This document shows positions 1,786 to 45,050 of a stretch of 64,000 bases of DNA, in pieces; position 1 is the stretch's first letter; each line of letters opens with the position of its first letter. The stretch spans positions 215,424 through 279,423 of the forward strand of contig NZ_JH376798.1 of NCBI RefSeq assembly GCF_000234095.1, in the 5' to 3' direction. The notes under the pieces are model-generated. The model saw only the letters and a list, made by a program, of their open reading frames with translations, made no database searches and had not been told where the DNA came from. The position numbers and the translations under genes were made by a program. Origin of the DNA: Centipeda infelix ATCC 43532 (GTDB lineage: Bacteria; Bacillota; Negativicutes; Selenomonadales; Selenomonadaceae).

Positions 1786-2097
1786 TATGATGTTTTCGAT
1801 GTCTCTGCCTGCGTAAAAAATACGGAGAACCGTGACCGTCGCCCGATCCTCATTCACGCGATAGAACACATAGTAATTGTCCACAGGCACTTTATGAACC
1901 CCCATTGACATCCACGGCTCCCAATCGACCGTTGGATGTCTGTGGGGAAATCTGTCCAGTGTGCGGACAGCACGACGAATCCGCGTTGTCTGATGCTGCG
2001 CCGTCTCTTCCGCCTGTAACTCCAATGCAATATAGCGATAAACTGCCCGCAAGTCCTCATAGGCGGCGGGAGAATACTGCACGCGATAACGGCTCAT
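1783..2097 (-). CDS. RelE/ParE-family toxin
   Basis: A 104-residue basic protein with the compact RelE/ParE layout: an N-terminal YSPAAYEDLRAVYRYI helix pair, a central variable part, and C-terminal strands ending in VTVLRIFYAGRDIENII. Family members poison gyrase or cleave mRNA at the ribosome; which applies cannot be told here. Its ATG overlaps the stop of the upstream small gene by 4 bases, the usual antitoxin-toxin coupling. The 3' end runs into a terminator shared with copA. Confidence 0.8.
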   Translation of the reverse strand: MSRYRVQYSPAAYEDLRAVYRYIALELQAEETAQHQTTRIRRAVRTLDRFPHRHPTVDWEPWMSMGVHKVPVDNYYVFYRVNEDRATVTVLRIFYAGRDIENII

Positions 2098-2315
2098 CTG
2101 CCAAATTCCCGCGCCAGTGCCGCATCCACCTCGTCCGGTGTCATTCCATTGCCGTCATGCAGGGAATCCACGCCCTTTGCAAGTTCGCAGTCCAATGCTG
2201 CGCGGGACATTCCGCCAATGGCGACGGGTCTTTTCGTGGGCGGCATCACATTCCATCCCTCCGCAGATTCCGTCTGATGACAAAGTGCGGCTGCATTCAA
2301 CATATCTGTCACCAT
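2094..2315 (-). CDS. Probable antitoxin partner, atypically short N-terminal half
   Basis: A 73-residue protein directly upstream of and overlapping the ParE-like toxin. The C-terminal segment (AALDCELAKG to DEVDAALAREFGR) resembles the toxin-binding tail of RelB/DinJ-type antitoxins. No ribbon-helix-helix DNA-binding segment is visible N-terminally, where MVTDMLNAAALCHQTESAEG is found instead. AAAGG lies immediately before the first ATG; a second ATG four codons on has a spacing of about 12. It may be a minimal antitoxin or one that lost its DNA-binding half. Identity rests mainly on position. Confidence 0.55.
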   Translation of the reverse strand: MVTDMLNAAALCHQTESAEGWNVMPPTKRPVAIGGMSRAALDCELAKGVDSLHDGNGMTPDEVDAALAREFGR

Positions 2316-2447
2316 CCTTTCATTTCTATTCTAGCATCTTTGATGCACACTGACAACTAAAACCAAAAATCACACACGAGTAGAGGAAAAGCCTCTCTCC
2401 TGTCGAATAAAACAATCGTATCATTGTGGAAGGAAAGGTAATGCCCT

Positions 2448-2951
2448 ATGAAAAAAATGATTCCACTCGTTATCGCCGCATGTGCCCTCATCGTCTGCAC
2501 TCCGCCGAGTGCAGCTCTGGCAAAGCCGTTCCCGATCTACGACTATTTGCAGAAGATCGAGAATACAGACTGGATCGTCGCCGAGACGCTGCGCTGGACA
2601 CCCGAGTCGGGCGCGAACCTCAAGGGGTACTATGTGTTTCGCGATGTGGATGTCCGCGTTGTCACCGTGGGCGGACACAGGATCATTCAGCTGCCTGTCC
2701 ACATCCTGCGCGGGAAGAATCTGAAGCATTTCAGCAGATTCCTCTTTTCGGTCGACCCAAAAAATCAGCTTTGGGGTACGGACAACCCGATTAAATGGGA
2801 GAAAATCGACGATTTTGCGCCACAGCACAAGCCCTTTGATCCCGTAACGCAGAAATGGGCGGTGGACTTCTCCGGAATGGCGCAGATGGTCATGCAGCAC
2901 GTCAAGTTCGACCGTCCTGATCTCTATCAGCAGCTTGATGTGACATGGTAA
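2448..2951 (+). CDS. Secreted protein of unknown function
   Basis: A 167-residue protein with a clear signal peptide (MKKMIPLVIAACALIV to about ALA, residue 25), followed by a soluble domain of about 140 residues rich in aromatic and basic residues. No catalytic motif or known domain is recognised. It is preceded by GGAAAGGTAATG-type spacing and followed by a strong terminator, so it is probably monocistronic. Function unknown. Confidence 0.75.
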   Translation: MKKMIPLVIAACALIVCTPPSAALAKPFPIYDYLQKIENTDWIVAETLRWTPESGANLKGYYVFRDVDVRVVTVGGHRIIQLPVHILRGKNLKHFSRFLFSVDPKNQLWGTDNPIKWEKIDDFAPQHKPFDPVTQKWAVDFSGMAQMVMQHVKFDRPDLYQQLDVTW

Positions 2952-2970
2952 ATGCCCTCCATACAGCGGG

Positions 2971-3000
2971 AAACGTCCATGTGCGCATGGACGTTTTTCT
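2971..3000 (+). terminator. Intrinsic terminator
   Basis: An 11-bp perfect stem (AAACGTCCATG, 2971-2981, with its complement at 2986-2996), TGCG loop, then TTTT. It closes the secreted-protein gene. Confidence 0.85.
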
Positions 3001-3085
3001 ATGCACATAAAGAAAAGTATCCTCACATAGATTTACAAAATGACAGATTTATTCTACAATAAGAAAATCAATCTGTGAGGTGACG

Positions 3086-7880: not shown

Positions 7881-7919
7881 AAAAGAACCTATCGCAAGGT
7901 AACGAAGGCTCTTTCTTCA
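7881..7919 (+). terminator. Possible terminator between convergent genes
   Basis: AAAGAACCT pairs with AGGCTCTTT (one mismatch), followed by CTTCAA. A weak but plausible hairpin between the ligase gene and panF. The rest of 7920-8007 shows no other feature. Confidence 0.4.
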
Positions 7920-8007
7920 AACACAAAGAATAATGGGGAGAGACCGACGGAACCACTCGTCAGTCACTCTTTTTGTGTCTTTATTATAACAACCTTAAAT
8001 CACACTG

Positions 8008-9456
8008 TCAAGTCTCCCTGCTTCGCTCCCACCAGCTTCCCGCGAGGAAGAGAACGAGTGAGGCGGTGATGCCGATGGCGATGGGGTGCAGTCCGAGCGT
8101 TTTGAATCCCGCCGCCATCGCCGCGCAGTAGATGACGGTGCCGCCGCCCATTGCGGCGAGTGCGCCCGTGCGCCGCGCCCATGTGGTAAAGAGACCGAAG
8201 ACGAGCACCCAGAAAAACGCCGTCTCAAGCCCGCCGAACGCAAACATATTGATGAGCCAAATGAGTGATGGCGGCGCAATCGCGAGCACGAACACGATGA
8301 TGCCGAGCGTTGCGGTGACCCCCATCGAGAGCCGGCGCAGCGTCTTTTCCTCGACGCACTTGCCGCGCTGCTGCTGATGGTGGAGGTAGACATCCTTTAC
8401 CACCGCCGACGAGGCGACGATGAGCACGCCCGAGATGGTGGAGATCGACGCCGCGAGCGGCCCGATGATCGCAAATCCGAGGAGTTCGGGCGGCATGACC
8501 TGCGCCATGAGCTGCGGGATGACACTGTCCACACCACCGAGAGCCTTTGCATCGACACCGAGCACCCCGCGTCCGAGTACACCGACGAGGTTCACGGCGA
8601 TGTTCATAAAGGCGATGACGACCGTGCCAATAATCATGGCGCGGTGCATATCGCGGCTGCTCCGATAGCTGATGCCGCGCACAACGGACTGCGGCAGGGC
8701 AATCGTGAGCGCACCCACGAGCAGCCACTGCGAGACATAGAGAGAGATGGGCATACGTCCCGCCGCCGTCGGTGTCAGCATCTCGGGATGTGCCGCACGC
8801 AGATTCGCGAAAATCGCCGCAAGACCGCCGCCCGCCTCAAGTACATAGTAAAACAGCAGAACGATGCCGAGCATCATGACAATCGCACAGCAGGTATCTG
8901 TCAGTGCAACGGCACGGAATCCGCCAATCGACGTATAGACAACGACCACAATGCCGAACAGCACCAGACCGAGCTCATAGCTGTAGCCCGTGACGGCGGC
9001 AAAGAGCTGCGCCCCGCCGACGAACTGTGCGACCATCGACGCGGCAAAGAAAATCACGATGGCGAATGCCGCGAGTGCCGCAAGAGCATCCGACTGATAG
9101 CGGTGACGGATGATATCGACAATGGTGACAGCGTGGATGCGCCGCGCCAGACGCGCGACCTTCTTGCCGAAGATGCCGAGCACGAGGAAGATCGTCATGG
9201 TCTGGATGACCGCCATGTAGATCCAGCCAAATCCGATCTCGTACGCCATACCCGGCCCGCCGACAAACGAGCTGACCGAGCTGTAGGTCGCGACCATCGT
9301 CATCGCGAGCACGAATGCGCCGAGCGTCTGCCCGCCGACAAAGTAGCCCGAGAGGAAGCCGCCCGCGTGACTCTGCCGCCGCACATAGATGCCGAGCGCG
9401 AGCATTGCCGCCATGAAGCCGAGGAGCGGCAGGAGCACCATGAGATTCCCGTTCAT
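8008..9456 (-). CDS. panF: Sodium:pantothenate symporter
   Basis: A 482-residue SSS-family carrier with 12-13 hydrophobic segments. PanF-like features include DFFLGGR-equivalent SGYFVGGQTLG, AMTMVATYSSVSSFVGGPGMAYEIGFGW near residue 50 and SVVRGISYRSSRDMHRA in the middle. It imports pantothenate with Na+. Its start overlaps the yhdT stop by ATGA, the yhdT-panF pairing known from other bacteria, which supports the substrate. Confidence 0.88.
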   Translation of the reverse strand: MNGNLMVLLPLLGFMAAMLALGIYVRRQSHAGGFLSGYFVGGQTLGAFVLAMTMVATYSSVSSFVGGPGMAYEIGFGWIYMAVIQTMTIFLVLGIFGKKVARLARRIHAVTIVDIIRHRYQSDALAALAAFAIVIFFAASMVAQFVGGAQLFAAVTGYSYELGLVLFGIVVVVYTSIGGFRAVALTDTCCAIVMMLGIVLLFYYVLEAGGGLAAIFANLRAAHPEMLTPTAAGRMPISLYVSQWLLVGALTIALPQSVVRGISYRSSRDMHRAMIIGTVVIAFMNIAVNLVGVLGRGVLGVDAKALGGVDSVIPQLMAQVMPPELLGFAIIGPLAASISTISGVLIVASSAVVKDVYLHHQQQRGKCVEEKTLRRLSMGVTATLGIIVFVLAIAPPSLIWLINMFAFGGLETAFFWVLVFGLFTTWARRTGALAAMGGGTVIYCAAMAAGFKTLGLHPIAIGITASLVLFLAGSWWERSRET

Positions 9457-34989: not shown

Positions 34990-35772
34990 CTATCCATCCT
35001 TCAACAGCCGCACGTGCTTTGCCCCGTCCTCGACGGTGACGCGTGTCTGTACGCCGTACATCGCCGCAATGTTCTCCGCAGTCAGCACCTCCTGCGCCCG
35101 CCCGTATGCGAATACATGGGCATCCTTCAGCATGAGGATCATATCGCAAAAGAGTGAGGCGAGGTTGAGATCGTGGATGGTCATGAGGACGGCAATGCTG
35201 TCCCGCCGTGCAATCTCCGTGATAAGGCGCAGAATAAAGAGCTGATGGTAGAGGTCGAGGCTCGCCGTCGGCTCATCGAGGATGATGAGCCCTGTCTCCT
35301 GCGCAAGTGCACGCGCGATAAAGACGCGCTGCCGTTCACCGCCGCTCATCTCCCTGATATTGCGAAAGGCAAAGTCTGTGAGTTCCATGCGCGCAATCAC
35401 ATCAAACGCGATGCGCTCGTCCTCCGCACGGTAGCGATAGCCTGCATACGGCAGACGCCCCATCAGCACCGCCTGCAGTGCCGTCATGCCAAATGCTGCG
35501 CCTGTATACTGCGGCACATAGGCGATGCGCTTTGCAATCTCACTCGCAGAGAGCGCGGAGAGATCAACACCGTCAACGTACACGGTCCCCGCTGAGGGGC
35601 GCAGGAGCTGTGCGATGCACTTGATGAGGGTGGTTTTCCCCGTGCCGTTCGGACCGAGGAGTCCGAGCACCTCGCCTGGCGCAACGGAGAGCGACACATC
35701 GTCCAAGATACGCCGCTCCGCACGGTAGCCGAAGGAGATATGCTCCACTGCAAGGCGTTTTTCCCCACTCAT
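34990..35772 (-). CDS. ABC transporter ATPase, FecE/BtuD family
   Basis: A 260-residue ATPase with Walker A GPNGTGKTT (about 40-48), Q-loop YVPQYTG, signature MSGGERQRV (about 142), Walker B GLIILDEPTASLD and switch His in MTIHDLNLAS. It powers the FecCD-type permease encoded just upstream and overlapping it by ATGA. Confidence 0.93.
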   Translation of the reverse strand: MSGEKRLAVEHISFGYRAERRILDDVSLSVAPGEVLGLLGPNGTGKTTLIKCIAQLLRPSAGTVYVDGVDLSALSASEIAKRIAYVPQYTGAAFGMTALQAVLMGRLPYAGYRYRAEDERIAFDVIARMELTDFAFRNIREMSGGERQRVFIARALAQETGLIILDEPTASLDLYHQLFILRLITEIARRDSIAVLMTIHDLNLASLFCDMILMLKDAHVFAYGRAQEVLTAENIAAMYGVQTRVTVEDGAKHVRLLKDG

Positions 35773-36821
35773 GTCAGCGACCTCCCCCTGCGCAGAATCA
35801 GATGGATGAAGAGCGGCACCCCGAGGAACGAGATGACGATGCCCACGGGGATTGTCACGGGATAGAGGATCAGCTTTCCGACCGTATCCGACACGAGGAG
35901 GAGCGCCGCTCCGAGCACTGCCGTAAACGGCAGATAGAAGCGGTGATCCGTCCCGATCAGGAACCGCGCCATATGCGGCGCAATCAGCCCCACGAAGCCA
36001 ATCACCCCCGTAAAGCTGATGATCGTCGCCGTCATAAGGACCGCGACAAGTCCTGCGATCGTGCGCAGCCGCGCAGGGTTCACGCCGAGACTGCGCGCCG
36101 TCTCATCCTCGCTCACCGCCATCACATTGAGCGGCAGTGCGTAGAACAGTGCGGCAACAAGCCCGAGTGTCACGATCACGCCGCCGATGGCGACGTACTC
36201 CCACGAGGCGCGGTGCAGCGAGCCGAACGTCCACTGAATGACCGCCGCGAGCTTGTGCTCCTGCGCAAAGAACTCAAGCGTCGCCGTGAGCGCACTGAAC
36301 AGGTAGTTCAGCGCAATGCCGACGAGCACAATCGTCGTCGGGCTGAGATCCGACCGCCGTGCAATGCCGTAGACGATGATGCCGCACGCCGACGAGAGCA
36401 GGAACGCCGATGTGATAATGCCGAGGTCACTATCCATGGCCGTCCCCGCCGCGAGCACAATGCAGAGCGAGGCACCGAGCGCCGCCGCTGCCGAGATACC
36501 GAGCGTAAATGGGCTCACAAGATAGTTGCGCGTCACGGACTGCATGAGCGCCCCGGCAAGCGCGAGCCCCGCCCCCGCGATGATCGCAAGCAGGACACGA
36601 GGCAGACGCAGCAGCAGGATGATCTTGTTCATCGCCGCATCCGCACCGCCGTCAATCGTCCCGTCAAAGTACCGAGCAACTGCATCCACCGTCTGCAGAG
36701 CCCCCGCATCCTTCATCCCGAGCGTCGTAAAGAAGAATGCCGCAACGAGCGTCAGCAACGCCCCCACCGCGATGGCAAGTACGCAGCGGCGGCCGTGTGC
36801 GTGATATTCCTGTTCGAGCAT
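35769..36821 (-). CDS. ABC transporter permease, FecCD/BtuC family
   Basis: A 350-residue permease with about ten helices and family marks LRLPRVLLAIIAGAGLALAG (about 72-91), the Gly-rich SPFTLGISAAAALGA, ALNYLFSALTA, and FTGVIGFVGLIAPHMAR (coupling helix region). It forms a homodimeric channel for metal chelates or vitamin B12. Overlaps with both neighbours show one translational unit with the binding protein and ATPase. The cobalamin riboswitch upstream favours a corrinoid substrate. Confidence 0.92.
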   Translation of the reverse strand: MLEQEYHAHGRRCVLAIAVGALLTLVAAFFFTTLGMKDAGALQTVDAVARYFDGTIDGGADAAMNKIILLLRLPRVLLAIIAGAGLALAGALMQSVTRNYLVSPFTLGISAAAALGASLCIVLAAGTAMDSDLGIITSAFLLSSACGIIVYGIARRSDLSPTTIVLVGIALNYLFSALTATLEFFAQEHKLAAVIQWTFGSLHRASWEYVAIGGVIVTLGLVAALFYALPLNVMAVSEDETARSLGVNPARLRTIAGLVAVLMTATIISFTGVIGFVGLIAPHMARFLIGTDHRFYLPFTAVLGAALLLVSDTVGKLILYPVTIPVGIVISFLGVPLFIHLILRRGRSLT

Positions 36822-37888
36822 CAGCGCTCCTCTCCCGACAGTGGGAAGGCTGGCAGAGTATGTCCCGTGACATATGGGAGATGCTGGTATTTCTCAAGCC
36901 ATACCTTGAACACATCCTCGGGGTGAAGATCGGGCAGCTGATCGGGGTAGAGGAACTTCGCGATATACATCGTCCCAACGAGCTTCGATGCGCCGCCATG
37001 GACATAGTGTGAGAGCAGGAGGATGTGGTCGTTTTTCACCGCATCGATTGTATCCCATCCCTCGCGCGACTTGAGTTCGCTCAGAATCCGCGCATGATCC
37101 TCCGCCGTCGGCGGGACGTAGGAGGAGTTCACCTTCGGCTCAGAGACCTTCACGATATACGCGGGATTCCGCTCGATGACTGCCTCCGGATTCACCTGTA
37201 CATTCTTTGCATCGCCAAATATATTGTACGCACCCGAATACTCCACCATGTCATAGAAATAGTCGCCGGGCACGGTGGTCTTGCCCTCCGTGCGGTACTC
37301 AAAATAGAGCTTCTTCTTCGGCACATCCGCTGTCTGACGCTTGATGTAGTCGAGCTTTTCCGTAAAGAACGACGAAAGCTCTGCCGCCTCCGCCTCCTTG
37401 CCGAAGAGTTTGCCGATCAGCGTGCAGTTGTCCTGAAACTCGCGAGTGTAGTACGCATCGACCACGATGACCGCGATGCCGAACGGCGCAAGTTTTTCCT
37501 GCGCGTCCTCCCATCCGCCGTTCCCCGTGAGGATGAGTGCCTGCGGCTGCAGCTCGATGATCTTTTCATAGTTCAGATTTCCTTGGTTCGCGCCGATCAC
37601 TTGATCCTGCTTGAACTTGCCCTTAAAGCCCGCCTCATCGTTAAAGATGTAGTTGTCAACGCCGACCACCGTGTCGATCGCCCCAACCGCATTGATAAGC
37701 TCGGCGTTGTAGGCATTCGACACGACGACGCGCGTCAGCGGATGCGGCACCGTCACTTCGCGCCCGATGCTGTCTGTCACAGTGATCGTATCCGCTCCGT
37801 TCGCCCGCTCTGCCGTGTCCTTTCCGCAGCCCGCAAGCGCAAGCAGGAGGCAGAGAACGATGCCGTACAGGAATATATTTTTCTTCAT
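36821..37888 (-). CDS. Periplasmic binding lipoprotein of the ABC transporter (first)
   Basis: A 355-residue lipoprotein (signal LLLALAGCGKD, Cys about 21) of the FecB/BtuF class: TITVTDSIGREVTVPHPLTR, VVVSNAYNAELINAVGA, QPQALILTGNGGW. It is longer and quite unlike the second binding protein. It overlaps the permease gene by one base (TGATG). A terminator-like hairpin separates it from the receptor gene upstream, so its level may be set lower than that of the receptor. Confidence 0.87.
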   Translation of the reverse strand: MKKNIFLYGIVLCLLLALAGCGKDTAERANGADTITVTDSIGREVTVPHPLTRVVVSNAYNAELINAVGAIDTVVGVDNYIFNDEAGFKGKFKQDQVIGANQGNLNYEKIIELQPQALILTGNGGWEDAQEKLAPFGIAVIVVDAYYTREFQDNCTLIGKLFGKEAEAAELSSFFTEKLDYIKRQTADVPKKKLYFEYRTEGKTTVPGDYFYDMVEYSGAYNIFGDAKNVQVNPEAVIERNPAYIVKVSEPKVNSSYVPPTAEDHARILSELKSREGWDTIDAVKNDHILLLSHYVHGGASKLVGTMYIAKFLYPDQLPDLHPEDVFKVWLEKYQHLPYVTGHTLPAFPLSGEER

Positions 37889-37900
37889 GATATCCCCCGT

Positions 37901-37931
37901 AAAAAAGGATTCGCCGCCCAGCAGCGAATCC
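37901..37931 (-). terminator. Terminator or attenuator between receptor and ABC genes
   Basis: GGATTCGC pairs with GCGAATCC and is followed on the minus strand by TTTTTT. It lies between the receptor stop (37942) and the binding-protein start. Partial read-through would make the transport genes part of the riboswitch-controlled transcript. Confidence 0.75.
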
Positions 37932-37941
37932 CACTCCTTTT

Positions 37942-40149
37942 TTAGATGTCCATCTGCATCGAAAGCATAACGCTGCGCGGATTGCCCTGAATCCCGTAAT
38001 TATACGTCGGACGTGACATCCAATAGCGCTTGTCGAGGACGTTGTACGCCGTGAGGCTGAATGCCGTCGGCACCGTTCCAAGCGTTGTCTTGTACGTCAC
38101 GCCGAGATCGACCGTTACATAGGCGGGCACATCGAGCTGCTTTGCCGTGCTCGTATAGATCGGTGCTTTGCCCGACCAGACCATGCGCAAGAACGCCGAG
38201 GTCTTTGCGTCCGCCGTGTACTCGGCGGCAAGCATCGCGCTCCAGTCCGCAACGCCCGCGACATCCTTGCCGTTATATACCGTGTTCGTCTGCTGCTCCG
38301 TCGCCAGGTGCATGAGCCCGCCCGTCAGCGTCCACTTTGGGGCGACCTGCCCGGAGACACTCAGCTCGATGCCATTGAGCTTGTTCTTTCCCTCCATGAC
38401 CGTTGTCGGCTTCGGATCACTGCCGTAAGTCACATCCATCGAGCGATCCTGCTCGATCTGGAACAGGCTCAGCCCTGCGCTGATCCCGTTCTTCCGATAC
38501 TTCACGCCGATCTCGTTCTGCTTCGTCTTAGCGGGCGCAAGCATCGCCCCCGTGTTCATGCGGCCGCCACCCACGACCGAGCCCTTGTCGAAGCTCTGCG
38601 AGTGGTTCGCATAGAGGCTGAGATCCTCCGTCGGCTTGTAGACGATGCCGTACGTCGGCGAGTTCGCACTGCTGTGTACGTTGGAGGTCGCCGCGCCCGT
38701 CGCCTTGTTGTAGCTCGTGACATCCACGCTGTGATGATGGATACCGAGCAGAACGGATGCCTTACCGTACTCCAGTGTATCCGTCACGGAAATCCCCGAG
38801 TAACGCGTCATCCCCGTCTTGATGGGACCTGTTACCGCAGAATACGGATAGTTCTGCGTAAAGCTCGTGACCCCGTCCGCAAAGCTGCCCGCCATGCTGC
38901 CGAACGGAGGAATCGTTGTCGAACCGTTCACACGATAGCCCCAGTACGCACGGTACCAGTTGCGGTCAACGGCGAGGACGACATCGTTCTTTACCTGCCC
39001 GATGTGGAACGTCCCCTGCACGCCGAGCTGCACGTAGGAATTGCGCAGCGCATATTTCTCCGCACTCAGCGTATTCTGGAAATGTCCCTGCTCATCGAGC
39101 ATATAGAGACGGCTCGCCGAGGTCTGTACGTAACCGCTCCCGAGGTTGTAGCTGTGCCCCGCATTCAGGAACGCTTTCCAATTTTCGCTGAGCTTCTGCT
39201 CGTGGTTCAGCGCCGCCGACCATGTGGAGACGGTGATCTGCTGCCCCGGGAAGCTATAGTTGCGTCTGCCGCTCGGCGGATCGGGCAGACGATCCCCCGT
39301 ATAGGCGTTTGCCCCTTTCCCGTCAAAGGCAAAGTACCGCTGACCGCCCTCATTCTTTGTGTAACGGTAACCCGCAAAGAGATTCGTCGTACTCCTTGCA
39401 TCCTTGTGATCGACATTGATGTAGAAATCGCGTGTCGTCAGCTTCTCACGCTCAATTGCCGTCTTTCCTTGGATATTTTCCGCGTTAATGCGCACGCCCC
39501 ACTGCTCGTCTTTGCCGAATCGCTTACCGACATCAAACACCTCGCCGAGCGCACCGCGCGCATTGATCGTCTGCTTGTAGGTCACGCGCTCCTTACCGTA
39601 CTCCGCCTTCTTCGTCACGAGGTTCACCGAGCCGCCCGCCGACTCCGAGTTTGTCGTACCGTGGATGCCGATCGCGGGTCCCGAGATCACCTCGATGCGC
39701 TCCACAAAGTTCGCGGGCATATTCGTCTGCGAGAAAAGCCCCGGCACACCGTTCACCTTGAACTGATACGCGTTCATCTGGAAGCCGCGGATCGAGTAGT
39801 CGTTGTACATCGTGCTCGTGCTCGTGCGCACAGACGGCGACATAAGCAGTGCATTCGGCAGCGGATTCGCGCCGTCATCGTACTGCGTAAGTGCCTTCTG
39901 CGTAATGTTCGTCTGACGGAACGGGACATCCATCACATCCTTCGTTCCGAGGAATCCCGTGCCGCCCGTGCTGCTCACAAGGCTGTTTTTCTCCTCCTCC
40001 ACAGGAGCAGTGCGCACGCCCTCTACCTCGACAGGTGCGAGTTCGTAGGAGTCCATCGCCTCCGTCTTCTCTGCGGCACTTGCCGCACCCATCCATACCG
40101 AGCCAACCGTCGCAAGTGCGACCGCAAGAGCCAGCTTTCGTTTTGTCAT
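37942..40149 (-). CDS. TonB-dependent receptor under cobalamin riboswitch control
   Basis: A 735-residue receptor with signal peptide (MTKRKLALAVALATVGSVWM), TonB box near YELAPVEVEG, a plug of the FhuA/FpvA type (DVPFRQTNITQKALTQY, SIRGFQMNAYQFKVNGVPG, VERIEVISGPAIGIHG, GGSVNLVTKKA) and a barrel ending RSVMLSMQMDI. The sequence alone would suggest a siderophore receptor. However, a cobalamin riboswitch with its own terminator lies directly upstream, so a corrinoid ligand is more likely. GGGGGA is 8 bases before the ATG at 40149; an ATG at 40155 is too close to it. Confidence 0.9.
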   Translation of the reverse strand: MTKRKLALAVALATVGSVWMGAASAAEKTEAMDSYELAPVEVEGVRTAPVEEEKNSLVSSTGGTGFLGTKDVMDVPFRQTNITQKALTQYDDGANPLPNALLMSPSVRTSTSTMYNDYSIRGFQMNAYQFKVNGVPGLFSQTNMPANFVERIEVISGPAIGIHGTTNSESAGGSVNLVTKKAEYGKERVTYKQTINARGALGEVFDVGKRFGKDEQWGVRINAENIQGKTAIEREKLTTRDFYINVDHKDARSTTNLFAGYRYTKNEGGQRYFAFDGKGANAYTGDRLPDPPSGRRNYSFPGQQITVSTWSAALNHEQKLSENWKAFLNAGHSYNLGSGYVQTSASRLYMLDEQGHFQNTLSAEKYALRNSYVQLGVQGTFHIGQVKNDVVLAVDRNWYRAYWGYRVNGSTTIPPFGSMAGSFADGVTSFTQNYPYSAVTGPIKTGMTRYSGISVTDTLEYGKASVLLGIHHHSVDVTSYNKATGAATSNVHSSANSPTYGIVYKPTEDLSLYANHSQSFDKGSVVGGGRMNTGAMLAPAKTKQNEIGVKYRKNGISAGLSLFQIEQDRSMDVTYGSDPKPTTVMEGKNKLNGIELSVSGQVAPKWTLTGGLMHLATEQQTNTVYNGKDVAGVADWSAMLAAEYTADAKTSAFLRMVWSGKAPIYTSTAKQLDVPAYVTVDLGVTYKTTLGTVPTAFSLTAYNVLDKRYWMSRPTYNYGIQGNPRSVMLSMQMDI

Positions 40150-40231
40150 GTTCATTTCCCCCTTGATCCACACGGACAGATATCGCCCGCGTTCCCCCAT
40201 ACACAACTTCCAACTTCACACGGCATCGCTC

Positions 40232-40266: not shown

Positions 40267-40349
40267 TCACACGAAAAGAACCTGCCGTCCTGTCCATCGC
40301 AGGATGCAGAGGAGGGCGCACGCCCCCATGGGGCGCAGCACTCCGGCGC

Positions 40350-40546
40350 ACGAGATTCGGTAGGTCTTCCGGCTCTGCATCATCGTCCGCCTCACCTTCC
40401 CGGTTTCCCAGTGGTCGAAGCGCGCACACACGGCTTCCTGAGGTTTTCTCTGCATTACGGCGGCGGGACCGCATCGGCTTATGAAGTCGCGGCGAACGGC
40501 TGCGCTTCCCGATTTCCCTGTTATGCCTTTCGGCACCGAATCTGCT
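40350..40546 (-). promoter_or_regulatory. Cobalamin riboswitch
   Basis: On the minus strand the ordered conserved pieces of the cobalamin aptamer are present: GGTGCC...GGCATAACAGGGAA (40541-40517), a GC-rich peripheral region, CCACTGGGAAACCGGGAAGG, and the B12 box GAGCCGGAAGACCTACC (40375-40359). A terminator follows at 40266. It should turn off the downstream receptor and transport genes when cobalamin is plentiful. Confidence 0.93.
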
Positions 40547-40560
40547 TATGAAGTCCATAC

Positions 40561-40844: not shown

Positions 40845-42104
40845 ATGGATGCAGCAATGCTGACACTGGGTGTTCTCGGCGTAGCGGCGTTTCTCTTCGC
40901 CACCGAGATTATCCCGCTCGCCGTCACGGCAATGGGCGCGGCGATCGCGCTCGGCCTTCTCGGGGTGCTCACCCCTGCACAGGTTTTCTCGGGGTTATCC
41001 AACTCTACCGTCGTCCTCTTTGCCGGTATGTTCATCATCGGCGCAGCGATGTTCCAGACGGGACTCGCACAAAAAATCGGCATCGCGGTTGTCAAAAAAT
41101 CGGGCAATGACGAGCGTGCATTGATGGCAGCACTGATGCTCATAACGATTGTTCTCTCATCCGTGTCCTCGAACACAGCGACAGTCGCCTGCCTCATGCC
41201 CGTCGTCATTCAGATCTGCGCCGCTGCAAAGCTGCCTGTCTCACCGCAGCTGATGGCACTCGCAGTCGCGGCGAATGTCGGTGGTACGATTACGATGATC
41301 GGCACGCCGCCGAACATCCTCATGAGTGCGACCCTCGGTGCGAGTGGTCTCACGCCGTTCGGCTTCTTTGAGTTCGCATGGATCGGCATCCCCCTCTCCA
41401 TCGTCGGCATGATCTACATGCTGACGATCGGGCGCAAGCTCTGCCCGCGCCGCCTCGTGGACAGCGTTGCTGTTGCGGGCGAGGAAGAGGAGGCAAAGGA
41501 TCCGCGCAAGATGATGATCTGCGCTGCCATCCTCATCGGTGTTGTCGTTGCGATGGTGCTCGAAAAGCAGATCAACGTCCCGATGCAGACCTCTGCCATC
41601 ATCGGCGGTCTGCTCTGCGTCCTCACGGGCTGTCTCACGGAGAAGCAGGCATATCAGGGTGTAGACTGGACGACCATCTTCCTCTTCGCGGGAATGCTCC
41701 CGCTCGCCAGTGCCATGGATCACAGCGGCGCAGGCAAGCTCATCGCGGACTTCGTTGTCGGCCTTATCGGCGACAGCCCCGCGCCCATGGTCATCGTCGC
41801 AGCAATGTTCGTCCTCTCCTGCGGTCTCACGCAGTTCATGTCAAACACGGCGGCGGCGGCACTCCTCGCGCCGATCGCGATCTCCATCGCCCAGACCATC
41901 GGCGTATCCCCCTATCCGGTTGTTATGGCGATCGGCATCGCGGCATCCTGCGCGTTCACCACGCCCGTCGCGACCCCGCCGAACACGCTCGTCCTGGGTC
42001 CCGGTCAATTCCGCTTCATGGACTATGTCACGGTTGGCGTTCCGCTCGTTATCATCTCGCTGATCGTCTGCCTTGTCGTCATCCCGCTCGTATGGCCGTT
42101 CTAA
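40845..42104 (+). CDS. SLC13/DASS-family anion transporter
   Basis: A 419-residue carrier with about eleven membrane segments. It carries both family signatures, SSVSSNTATVACLMPV (about 104-119) and MSNTAAAALLAPIA (about 330-343), each followed by a TPPN motif (GTPPNILM; ATPPNTLV). DASS members carry di- or tricarboxylates or sulfate with Na+. AGGAGAT precedes the ATG. The SHMT-like pair lies downstream on the same strand, about 170 bases away. The substrate cannot be told from sequence. Confidence 0.88.
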   Translation: MDAAMLTLGVLGVAAFLFATEIIPLAVTAMGAAIALGLLGVLTPAQVFSGLSNSTVVLFAGMFIIGAAMFQTGLAQKIGIAVVKKSGNDERALMAALMLITIVLSSVSSNTATVACLMPVVIQICAAAKLPVSPQLMALAVAANVGGTITMIGTPPNILMSATLGASGLTPFGFFEFAWIGIPLSIVGMIYMLTIGRKLCPRRLVDSVAVAGEEEEAKDPRKMMICAAILIGVVVAMVLEKQINVPMQTSAIIGGLLCVLTGCLTEKQAYQGVDWTTIFLFAGMLPLASAMDHSGAGKLIADFVVGLIGDSPAPMVIVAAMFVLSCGLTQFMSNTAAAALLAPIAISIAQTIGVSPYPVVMAIGIAASCAFTTPVATPPNTLVLGPGQFRFMDYVTVGVPLVIISLIVCLVVIPLVWPF

Positions 42105-42275: not shown

Positions 42276-43598
42276 ATGAAAAAAGAAGATCTGCTCAATC
42301 ATCTGAAAGCATTCGACCCCGAAGTCTACACCTTCCTGCAGGATGAGAGCCATCGCCGCCGCTACGCACTCTCACTGATCCCCACGGAGAGTGCCATGTC
42401 CCCCCTCGCAGCATTCATCGAAGGGAGTGCGCTCGCCAACAGCACACTTGAGATGTATGGCGCAACGCATACCTCCTCCATCGAGGAGCTGGTGCGCACG
42501 CGTGCACAGGAGCTGTTCGGCAGCGAACATGCCGTTGTGCGTCTCGGAGGCATTGCCGCCGCCTCACGCGTGGCACTGCTCGGTCTGCTGCAGCCGGGGG
42601 ATACCGTTCTCTCGTTCAACCTGCGCAAGCAAGAGCACTGTGCAGGGCTGAATTTCCACTTTGAGAACTACGGCATCGATCCAGGTCTTCAACGGGTGGA
42701 CTGGGATGAGGTTGCACAGATCGCAGAGCGTATCAAGCCGCGTCTCATCGTCTTCTCCCCCGTCAGCTATCCGTGCATTCCGAACTATGAGCACCTCACG
42801 GCGATTGCGCGTTCCGTGGGGGCCTATCTCTGGGTGGACATCGGTCAGTGTGTCGGGCTTGTCGCGGCGGGTCTCATTCCCTCGCCTGTTGCGTGTGCCG
42901 ATGTGGTGAGTTTCCCGACGAACGACTCCCTACGCGGTCCGGAAGGCGCAATCCTGCTTTGCAAAAAGGAACTCGCACCGCAGCTGGATGCCGCCGTCAC
43001 GAACACGGGGCACACGGCACTGCATACGAGCCGCCTCGCAGCGCTCGCCTTTGCCCTGCACGCCGCCGCACAGCCGAAGTTCCGCGCCTACGGGGAGCAG
43101 GTACTCACGAACAGCAAGGCACTCGCCGCCGCACTTGAAAAAAGAGGAACGGCGCTGCTCTGCGGCGGTACCGAGACGCATCTCGTACTGGCGGCACCCG
43201 CACCTGGGGTCGATCTCATGGATGCCGTGCATACACTCGCGCAGATCGGGCTCTATGTAAAGCCCGATCGGATTCCGACCATGCGTGCGGCGTTCATGCT
43301 CTCGGCACTGCGCCTTTCGACACTGAACCCGACGACGCGCGGGCTCACGGCGGGAGACATGGAGATCGTCGCCGATGCCCTCGCAGGCGTACTCTCAGGT
43401 TCGCTCAGTGAGATGCAGCAGGATGCACTTCGTATGAGCATCGGCAAGCTCATCATGGACAAGCCGCTCTTCTCCGACAAATGGATGAACCTCGATGCGA
43501 TGGCGCACGCTGACTGCCCCGTCTCGGGCGAGGGTATCGCGGTCCATACGCACGCAGCAAGCGAGCGTCGGAACATCCTCAAGAATCTGTTCCAATAA
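42276..43598 (+). CDS. SHMT-like protein lacking the PLP lysine (paralogue 1)
   Basis: A 440-residue protein with the fold-type I layout and many serine hydroxymethyltransferase landmarks: LIPTESAMSP (for LIASENFVSP), RAQELFGSEHA, LLQPGDTVLS, SPVSYPCIPN, VDIGQCVGLVAAGLIPSPV and the Arg in LRLSTLNPTTRG. At the catalytic site, THKTLRGPRGG of SHMT is replaced by TNDSLRGPEG: the Schiff-base Lys is Asp 217, and the ring-contact His of VDMAH is Gln 191. Normal PLP catalysis is therefore not expected. GAGGAGAG lies 7 bases before the ATG. A second such gene follows. Function unknown. Confidence 0.8.
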   Translation: MKKEDLLNHLKAFDPEVYTFLQDESHRRRYALSLIPTESAMSPLAAFIEGSALANSTLEMYGATHTSSIEELVRTRAQELFGSEHAVVRLGGIAAASRVALLGLLQPGDTVLSFNLRKQEHCAGLNFHFENYGIDPGLQRVDWDEVAQIAERIKPRLIVFSPVSYPCIPNYEHLTAIARSVGAYLWVDIGQCVGLVAAGLIPSPVACADVVSFPTNDSLRGPEGAILLCKKELAPQLDAAVTNTGHTALHTSRLAALAFALHAAAQPKFRAYGEQVLTNSKALAAALEKRGTALLCGGTETHLVLAAPAPGVDLMDAVHTLAQIGLYVKPDRIPTMRAAFMLSALRLSTLNPTTRGLTAGDMEIVADALAGVLSGSLSEMQQDALRMSIGKLIMDKPLFSDKWMNLDAMAHADCPVSGEGIAVHTHAASERRNILKNLFQ

Positions 43599-43647
43599 AA
43601 ATATCACCCATCCATCGGTGCGGACGAAGGCATCCGCACGCTCTACC

Positions 43648-43690
43648 GCTCCTGCATGTGTACTTGCGTCGCATGCGGGAGCTTTGATTT
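43648..43690 (+). terminator. Intrinsic terminator
   Basis: GCTCCTGCATG pairs with CATGCGGGAGC, then TTTGATTT. A second hairpin GTGCGGA / TCCGCAC (43619-43640) precedes it. They separate the two SHMT-like genes. Confidence 0.7.
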
Positions 43691-43814
43691 CCCATAAAAA
43701 TATTCAGAAACGTCAACAAATGAGTGACCTGTGCGGTACAATATGGTATACTAAGGAAACAACATTAACGAAATGGGGAAACGGCCCCCATTTTACGGAA
43801 GAGGAGAATGATCC

Positions 43815-45050
43815 ATGAAACGTGAAGAAGTCGTCAGCCACCTGAAGACATTTGACCCCGAGATCTACAATCTGCTTGAGGAGGAGCGAGAACGCCAGCG
43901 TTACACCCTCTCCCTCATGCCGAACATGAACGCCATGTCGCCGTTCGCGAAATACCTTGAGGGCAGCATCCTGACGAACAGCATCTTTGACCGGAGGGAC
44001 GATACCCCAACCGGCGGGCTGCACCTCGCCGGCATTGTTCGTCAGCGCGCCATGGATCTCTTTCGCTGCGACCACGCCATCGTCCGCCTTGGCAACATCG
44101 TCGCTGCCTCGCGCGTCGTCTTTCAGGCACTCCTGGAGCCGGGCGACACTGTCCTTTCCTTTAACCTCAGGAAAAAGGACCACGTCGCAGGTCTCTCGTA
44201 CAAATTCGAGAACTACGGCATCGAGCCGGGTACACAGGAGATCGACTGGGGTGCAGTACGGGCGCAGGCGGAGCGCGTAAAGCCACGGCTCATCATCTTC
44301 TCCCCCGTCAGCTACCCGCGCACCATCGACTACCAGATTCTCTTCGAGATCGCGCAGAGCGTCGATGCGTACTTCTGGGTCGACATCAGCCAGAGTGCCG
44401 GGCTCGTCGCATCCAAGCTCGTCCCCTCGCCCGTGCCGCTTGCCGATGTCGTCACCTTCTCCACGCGCGACTCGCTGCGCGGCCCTGACGGTGCCATCCT
44501 CCTCACGAAGAGCGAGCTCGCTGCACGTATGGATTCCGCTGTCATCAACACGGGGCACGAGGCTCTGCACATGAATCACCTCGCCGCGCTCGGCGTTGTC
44601 CTGCGCGAGGCGGGCAGCGACAGTTACCGCACCTATGCTGAGCAGGTCGTGCGAAACGCACAGGTGCTTGCACGCACGCTCGCCGACCACGGGGCATCCG
44701 TCCTCTGCGGCGGCACGGACACCCATCTTGTTCTCGCCTCTACCGCCGCCGGCATCGACATGCGCGAGGCGGTCAAGGCAATCGGACGCATGGGCATCCG
44801 CGTCAAGCCCGACAGCGTACCCACGATGAACTCGGGGCTGTACCTCCACGCCCTGCGTCTGTCTACCTCAAGTCCGACAACGCGCGGCATGGCAGAACAG
44901 GACATTGCCTACATCGGCTCACTGCTCGCCAAGCCGCTCACCACCATCCTCGCCCCCGAGGAGATCGAGAAGATCCGTCAGGAGATCGTCGCCCTCGTCA
45001 AGGACGCCCCCATCTTCGACGACGAGTGGGTAGGCGATTCCGAGGAGTGA
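43815..45050 (+). CDS. SHMT-like protein lacking the PLP lysine (paralogue 2)
   Basis: A 411-residue paralogue of the preceding gene with the same landmarks (LLEPGDTVLSFNLRK, SPVSYPRTIDY, VDISQSAGLVASKLVPSPV, LRLSTSSPTTRGM). The catalytic segment reads STRDSLRGPDG: Asp 219 replaces the PLP lysine and Gln 193 the His. The Glu of the ASEN motif, kept in paralogue 1 (PTES), is lost here (PNMN). GAGGAG lies 8 bases before the ATG. Good framing and conserved non-catalytic parts argue against a pseudogene. Confidence 0.8.
   Translation: MKREEVVSHLKTFDPEIYNLLEEERERQRYTLSLMPNMNAMSPFAKYLEGSILTNSIFDRRDDTPTGGLHLAGIVRQRAMDLFRCDHAIVRLGNIVAASRVVFQALLEPGDTVLSFNLRKKDHVAGLSYKFENYGIEPGTQEIDWGAVRAQAERVKPRLIIFSPVSYPRTIDYQILFEIAQSVDAYFWVDISQSAGLVASKLVPSPVPLADVVTFSTRDSLRGPDGAILLTKSELAARMDSAVINTGHEALHMNHLAALGVVLREAGSDSYRTYAEQVVRNAQVLARTLADHGASVLCGGTDTHLVLASTAAGIDMREAVKAIGRMGIRVKPDSVPTMNSGLYLHALRLSTSSPTTRGMAEQDIAYIGSLLAKPLTTILAPEEIEKIRQEIVALVKDAPIFDDEWVGDSEE

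Follow-up and report, generated by a model that had tools for sequence, protein, structure and literature searches.

A lysine-less family of serine hydroxymethyltransferase-like proteins encoded beside transporter genes in Selenomonadaceae

Serine hydroxymethyltransferase (SHMT) is a textbook pyridoxal 5'-phosphate (PLP) enzyme. Some fold-type-I proteins lack the Schiff-base lysine: SPTLC1/LCB1 and GcvPA, which pair with a lysine-bearing subunit, and ColD, which uses a histidine together with pyridoxamine 5'-phosphate (PMP). SHMT2 has a non-catalytic role in the BRISC complex. Here we describe two tandem SHMT-like genes of Centipeda infelix ATCC 43532 and the family to which they belong. The genes lie in a stretch of 64,000 nucleotides (contig NZ_JH376798.1, positions 215,424 to 279,423; hereafter the window, counted from its first letter). 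Protein A (440 amino acids; 42276..43598, + strand) and its paralogue, protein B (411 amino acids; 43815..45050, + strand), follow the first gene of the unit, which encodes a DASS/SLC13-type organic-anion transporter of 419 amino acids (40845..42104, + strand). Both SHMT-like reading frames are intact, the two proteins are 53% identical, and both carry aspartate where SHMT has its Schiff-base lysine. Unlike SPTLC1/LCB1 and GcvPA, the unit holds no lysine-bearing copy; the canonical GlyA of this genome (588 bits, motif THKTLRGP, 35% identical to A) is encoded separately, on contig C3. In ColD a histidine replaces the lysine, while the present family has Asp, Gly, Glu or Ala there. SHMT2 offers the likeness of an SHMT fold with a non-catalytic role, with the difference that it keeps its lysine.

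How much of SHMT is left in A and B? A reading of the window from its letters alone (the sequence-only reading) had held that both copies keep the SHMT framework, and this is borne out. Pfam PF00464 matches A with 196 bits and B with 215 bits, against a gathering score of 27, over profile positions 1-397 of 399, and no other domain was found in either protein by the Pfam search. The NCBIfam SHMT model PRK00011 gives 224 and 244 bits, under its cut-off of 335 bits. Protein A was modelled with AlphaFold2 (mean predicted local distance difference test score 90.8), and the model has the SHMT fold along the whole chain. Its best Foldseek match is the Bacillus (Geobacillus) stearothermophilus enzyme (bsSHMT, 1kkj; TM scores 0.82/0.88), all 50 rows listed are SHMTs, and VIA-align places it at Z 47.7 to 1kkj (root-mean-square deviation 2.1 over 383 residues; best Z 48.6).

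Solved SHMTs and the GlyA of this genome were aligned with A and B; residues are numbered as in bsSHMT, and their roles are assumed from those in the Bacillus and E. coli enzymes. Asp197, Arg366 and Arg357, which we take to be the substrate-carboxylate arginine, are kept in both proteins, as are the VD motif and TTR. Lys226 is aspartate in both: THKTLRGP has become TNDSLRGP in A (Asp217, codon GAC at 42924..42926, + strand) and TRDSLRGP in B (Asp219, codon GAC at 44469..44471, + strand), as alignment with SHMTs and homologues confirms. A sequencing error is excluded, since the same state recurs in many species, including an orthologue that is 98% identical. It had also been claimed that a ring-contact histidine is glutamine in both copies. 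The change is present, VDMAH having given way to VDIGQ and VDISQ (Asp188 to Gln191 of A, 42837..42848, + strand), but the residue is His200, which presumably touches the O3' oxygen of PLP; His122, taken to be the ring-stacking histidine, aligns with a retained histidine that adjoins an eight-residue deletion. Further losses comprise the Tyr60/Tyr61 folate/substrate loop, the LTHG loop, Gly94 of the phosphate cup and the Gly-rich 253-258 loop. Folate binding, one of the roles proposed earlier, is thus disfavoured, because the folate-contact residues and loops are gone. Judged by these residues, SHMT chemistry through a Lys226-PLP Schiff base is very unlikely in A and B, in agreement with the proposal that normal PLP chemistry was lost.

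Was the lysine lost once or twice? To answer this, a tree of 64 rows, 48 of them lysine-less, was rooted on canonical GlyA (11 canonical rows as outgroup, all Bacillota). All 48 lysine-less rows form one clade with support 100/100, on a stem of 1.06 changes per column. Within it, A and B fall into two sister clades of Selenomonas and Centipeda proteins (100/97 for A, 100/100 for B), which are joined at 100/98. Since A and B are nested in the lysine-less clade, their change from Lys to Asp was inherited from one event; the tree indicates that the lysine was lost once and that A and B arose by duplication inside the clade. Two independent changes were considered and are ruled out by this topology. 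The earlier argument, which took the same change in two diverged copies as a sign of selection, therefore fails, and the real evidence is the conservation across the family. The tree program (treekit) warned that two long branches meet, namely the canonical plus lysine-bearing side and a gammaproteobacterial group; despite this warning, the deletions and new invariant residues shared by the family support a single clade independently.

The proteins are maintained by selection. The ratio of nonsynonymous to synonymous substitution rates (dN/dS) is 0.036-0.208 in 15 pairs compared within the A or B types, some of which have Glu, Ala or Gly at position 226; between A and B it is 0.26 at a dS of 1.5. 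Purifying selection acts on the pairs tested. One might suppose a decaying or redundant SHMT paralogue that was kept by chance, as position 226 is variable among B-type copies and, in the lineage of the window, B lacks its own transporter. Such decay is hardly credible, given ratios well below 1 in 15/15 within-group pairs, the wide distribution of the family and the residues that are invariant in it alone.

Which residues are these? The residue set comprised 81 distinct lysine-less proteins (67 plus 14 gammaproteobacterial ones), five duplicates having been removed from 86 rows. Position 226 is Asp in 63, Gly in 15, Glu in two and Ala in one, and Lys and His occur there in none; the gammaproteobacterial group has Gly in 14/14. 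A conserved Asp226 was considered as a new catalytic residue, but the occurrence of Gly, Glu and Ala at this position rules it out as a general rule. Eight residues are invariant in 81/81: Asp197, Arg357, Ser114, Arg118, Lys119, Ser170, Pro171 and Ser359. Trp195 (80 proteins), Arg or Lys at position 90 (79), Arg99 (78), Ser98 (78), Gln200 (77) and His255 (77) are nearly so, His122 is kept in 72, and position 53 is Asp or Glu in 64. On the side of loss, Gly94 is gone from all 81, Ser93 is kept in 15, Tyr51 and the Gly 253-258 loop are changed, and 86/86 rows have deletions of the loops around 63-67 and 126-130. The near-invariant positions specific to the family lie mostly (19/24) within ten presumed active-site loop segments that make up 26% of the chain; the binomial p of about 8e-8 is descriptive, for the segments were picked by the residue contacts of SHMT after the family had been seen. 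The old active site thus appears to have been rebuilt rather than eroded. Compared with bsSHMT, the family has not only lost Lys226 and its loops and altered the phosphate cup but gained the Arg118-Lys119 pair and other invariant residues, and its gene is paired with that of a carboxylate transporter.

These features give a scenario to which we assign about an even chance: A and B would be a neofunctionalised SHMT fold that no longer works as a PLP-Lys226 enzyme and in which the rebuilt site binds the carboxylate being transported, either as an enzyme or as a sensor. An SHMT gene would have been duplicated, Lys226 would then have been lost once, and the active site would have been remade as an anion-binding pocket. 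The predicted pocket keeps Arg357 and Asp197 and has gained Arg90, Arg99, Arg118, Lys119 and Ser170/Ser359; an acid ligand would suit this combination of the retained Arg357 with newly gained conserved basic residues. The protein would act on the carboxylate that the transporter of the adjacent upstream gene moves.

Two other uses of such a site should be considered. The first is a displaced Schiff base, which had been named as something that would overturn the idea of lost chemistry. The candidate for it is Lys119: this is the only lysine column invariant among the 81 proteins (the next best, position 339, reaches 78%), and it lies in the loop before His122, where canonical SHMTs have His in 8/11 rows and Asp in 2/11. 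In the window it is Lys118 of A (42627..42629, + strand) and Lys120 of B (44172..44174, + strand, by alignment). As a new reactive lysine it might form a Schiff base with PLP, approached from the opposite side of the site; alternatively, its direct partner might be an oxo- or hydroxy-acid that has been imported. We regard this as improbable; were it true, the latter would make a PLP-free enzyme resembling class-I aldolases on an SHMT fold. The second is the use of PLP or PMP without Lys226 in the manner of ColD. Asp197, Gln200 and His122 would then hold the cofactor, and Arg357 the substrate carboxylate. These four residues are kept in 81/81, 77/81, 72/81 and 81/81 proteins respectively. Moreover, K226Q and K226M forms of Bacillus SHMT have been crystallised with glycine and serine, by the titles of 1yjs and 1yjy, so that an SHMT can fold and hold a ligand even without this lysine. 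However, the phosphate site speaks against it, through the losses listed above at positions 93, 94, 51 and 253-258, and an acidic residue at 93 (Asp, 14 rows) or 95 (Glu, 14 rows) would repel a phosphate; nor does His, the residue of ColD, ever stand at position 226. This too seems improbable.

We now turn to the transporter. The suggestion that a neighbouring SLC13 carrier is linked to the two genes holds well beyond the window. The linkage set consisted of 48 lysine-less genes in 43 named loci, from which three (L045, L058 and L076) were excluded for too little upstream sequence. By script, 37 genes directly follow a transporter gene on their own strand, which is of the short DASS type, as in the window, in 18 cases, the long DASS type in 12 and a GntP-like type in seven; two loci whose reading frames overlap or are broken (L059, L066) were added by hand. 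A transporter is thus directly upstream of 39/45 genes and within the unit of 42/45, the B genes of L034, L035 and L037 being third in a transporter-A-B order as in the window. A further Selenomonadaceae set (L117-L123, some of them repeats of earlier genes) has a carrier upstream in 7/7, six short DASS and one GntP-like. In the gammaproteobacterial family, 15 of the 24 genomes judged, out of 36, have a short DASS gene upstream on the same strand, with gaps of 4-1275 bp. GntP-like genes were also seen directly downstream of the lysine-less gene in L045 and nearby in L145. The second lysine-less copies of two S. ruminantium-type genomes (L126/L143, which are one locus, and L144) have a GPH symporter, of sugar/hexuronide type, 147-158 bp upstream in place of the DASS or GntP-like carrier.

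The long and short DASS types share 27% identity, and the GntP-like protein has no significant match to either. As the partner carrier type varies while the soluble protein stays, a metabolite in common is a likelier link than a single fixed contact between proteins. That A and B form a complex, another earlier suggestion, does not hold as a general function, for 38/43 named loci have a single copy. After the carriers, the next commonest neighbour cluster occurs in 16/44 loci. Since no other enzyme is conserved in the unit, a PLP-independent enzyme acting on the carried acid is favoured by a small margin over a binding sensor.

The same scarcity of conserved neighbours, however, would also suit a non-enzymatic regulator, that is, a PLP-free dimer of SHMT fold whose ligand is the carboxylate, an amino acid or PLP and which regulates the transporter or docks on it, possibly via a tail. 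Protein A has such a tail after Trp403 (43485..43595, + strand; low-confidence helix 419-439), without counterpart in B or in the genome's canonical GlyA. Across the family the tails differ by the type of partner carrier (the rows include some duplicates): a common 39-residue tail ending FWDN or FWDS is found in 13/13 rows linked to long DASS carriers, tails of 21-23 residues in 12/14 rows linked to GntP-like or GPH carriers, and, by our own pattern, a KK..LF-type (KNLF-like) end in 12/36 rows linked to short DASS carriers. The tails of the GntP/GPH-linked rows have AMIHW-like ends. Freedom of residue 226 to vary would fit a regulator as well. On the other hand, tail type is confounded with clade, B copies are tailless even beside a transporter of their own (L036, L038, L044), SHMT is the sole domain shown by Pfam, and one conserved interface would hardly survive the switches to unrelated transporters. 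A regulator is therefore possible, though we think it rather unlikely.

What does the transporter of the window carry? It matches the NCBIfam model TIGR00785 (dass) with 222 bits against a cut-off of 198.6, and its nearest solved chains are VcINDY and SLC13. Orthologues in other Negativicutes are 53-78% identical. Where they do not adjoin a lysine-less gene, methylmalonyl-CoA decarboxylase genes stand beside them in 14/15 loci read (L146-L158 and L160; for eight of these the subunits were checked against models, and for the other six they were named by eye). One of the 14, L154, comes from a Selenomonadaceae genome (G007) in which no lysine-less gene scored. The one locus without them, L159, is a second copy from a Selenomonas genome. 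The beta subunit of the sodium-pump decarboxylase scores above cut-off in L146, L149, L151, L153, L154, L155 and L160, and L148 also has MeaB. Tandem arrays of four (L146) and five (L153) occur among these short DASS loci. According to a report on Phascolarctobacterium faecium (PMC7568257), a DASS gene there is consecutive with the succinate-pathway cluster, and its expression is much higher when a succinate producer is grown alongside. An MmdB-like gene with 77% identity to the L146 one is also present in the genome of the window, on the contig that carries the transporter and about 266 kb away from it. The same genome encodes one further Na_sulph_symp protein, in a frame of 530 codons. The company of the orthologues points to succinate, and the cargo of the window's carrier is likely succinate or a close C4-dicarboxylate, which would also be the most likely ligand of A and B.

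Several observations weigh against a carboxylate-binding protein tied to the transporter by its cargo. Residue 226 is not fixed, hence there is no universal catalytic residue, and the retention of Asp197 and, mostly, of His122 would suit a PLP-like ring as well. The tails specific to carrier type could dock on the membrane or on the carrier. No transporter is near the genes of L039, L040 and L043 or the second copy L127. In the gammaproteobacterial family, nine of the 24 genomes have none in the 2-4 kb read, and five of the 15 carriers are 0.7-1.3 kb away. Neither the GntP-like nor the GPH partners are of a type that typically carries C4-dicarboxylates, and the GntP-like name rests on one Pfam match (L068, 33.7 bits), L064 having no match; none of the three GntP-like proteins tested was named by NCBIfam, and that of L068 gave no PDB match up to an E-value of 1. 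As for the cargo, the MmdA matches of L146 and L148 (933 and 973 bits) are just under the curated 998.8, and the model of the beta subunit is common to other sodium-pumping decarboxylases.

There is a further question, how widely the lysine-less family is distributed. Among Selenomonadaceae, 76/151 genomes have a match of at least 278 bits; the scores are bimodal, the next ones being at 224 bits and below, the range of canonical GlyA. This count comes from the score distribution, some of the proteins having been read letter by letter. A pattern scan of GTDB contigs gave 43 loci, a set biased to Asp because one of the two patterns demanded it. They belong to Selenomonas, Centipeda, Mitsuokella and uncultured Selenomonadaceae, with one record each labelled Selenomonadales and Veillonellaceae (L075) and one metagenome-assembled genome of Aeromonadales (L073, genome G538). 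L073 was considered as a mis-binned contig, which is ruled out, as 36/56 genomes of the G538 family, probably Succinivibrionaceae, carry the gene. In the order of G538, 8/197 genomes are positive, all within that family. Samples of 398 genomes each of Bacillota and of the phylum of G538 showed no further family at family-level scores (above 500 bits or E below 1e-105), such scores coming from Selenomonadaceae and G538 itself; of the Bacillota matches at or below 321 bits, eight were read and all have Lys, the remainder being assigned as canonical by score. A class sample had 33/200 positive genomes, 28 of them Selenomonadaceae, and the six matches in the other five (355-378 bits) all have Lys226. 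Of 245 plasmid matches, the ten listed show 32-35% identity, and six of these ten are labelled glyA, as judged from their entries.

A canonical-scoring SHMT is also present in 4/4 genomes checked, so the lysine-less family does not replace GlyA in them. On one metagenome-assembled contig (L070) a canonical glyA (1819-3063, - strand) lies about 7 kb from the lysine-less gene. Among the matches listed from the open-access literature, no title or abstract start concerns such a family. Such genes probably carry the name glyA by mistake in many annotations. Selection has maintained, in Selenomonadaceae and in one family of Gammaproteobacteria, proteins that keep the SHMT fold, have discarded its defining lysine and appear to have a rebuilt site; if the scenario of a rebuilt anion pocket is true, they show how a PLP enzyme turns into something else.

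A lysine-bearing second SHMT paralogue of other Negativicutes (L108-L112; clade support 100/97) is sister to the lysine-less clade, on a branch with 100/100. It resembles the lysine-less family in Trp195 (4/5), in a C-terminal W and in having carriers of acidic metabolites near three copies: DctA/GltP-type by best match, under the cut-off, in L108 and L109, and GltS, above it, in L111. It differs in keeping Lys226, His200 and Glu53 in 5/5 and its loops intact, with Tyr60-Tyr61 replaced by Phe-Val. The motif reads STQKTLRGP in four copies and STHKTFRGP in L109, and the neighbours include DctA/GltP-type symporters, racemases, aspartase, and GltS or FtcD. This paralogue may act, in SHMT-like fashion, on an acidic amino acid.

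Some minor features of the loci remain to be mentioned. In three gammaproteobacterial loci with no transporter nearby (L128, L130, L131), a small NAD-binding-like protein is encoded 0.5-0.7 kb upstream; that of L128, the one tested, has no NCBIfam match. A promoter of its own was considered for B, and two promoter-like matches lie between A and B, but three are found in the region where 2.0 are expected, so they are uninformative. No folate, glycine or PLP riboswitch reached threshold upstream in the window, L036 or L038, and the same scan returned only cobalamin riboswitches, on the minus strands of the window and of L038. That of the window (Rfam RF00174, 74.7 bits, 40342-40555, - strand) is divergent from the transporter and stands upstream of a series of genes named by eye as TonB-receptor-like, binding-protein-like and permease-like (35769-40206); that of L038 lies at 7902-8074.

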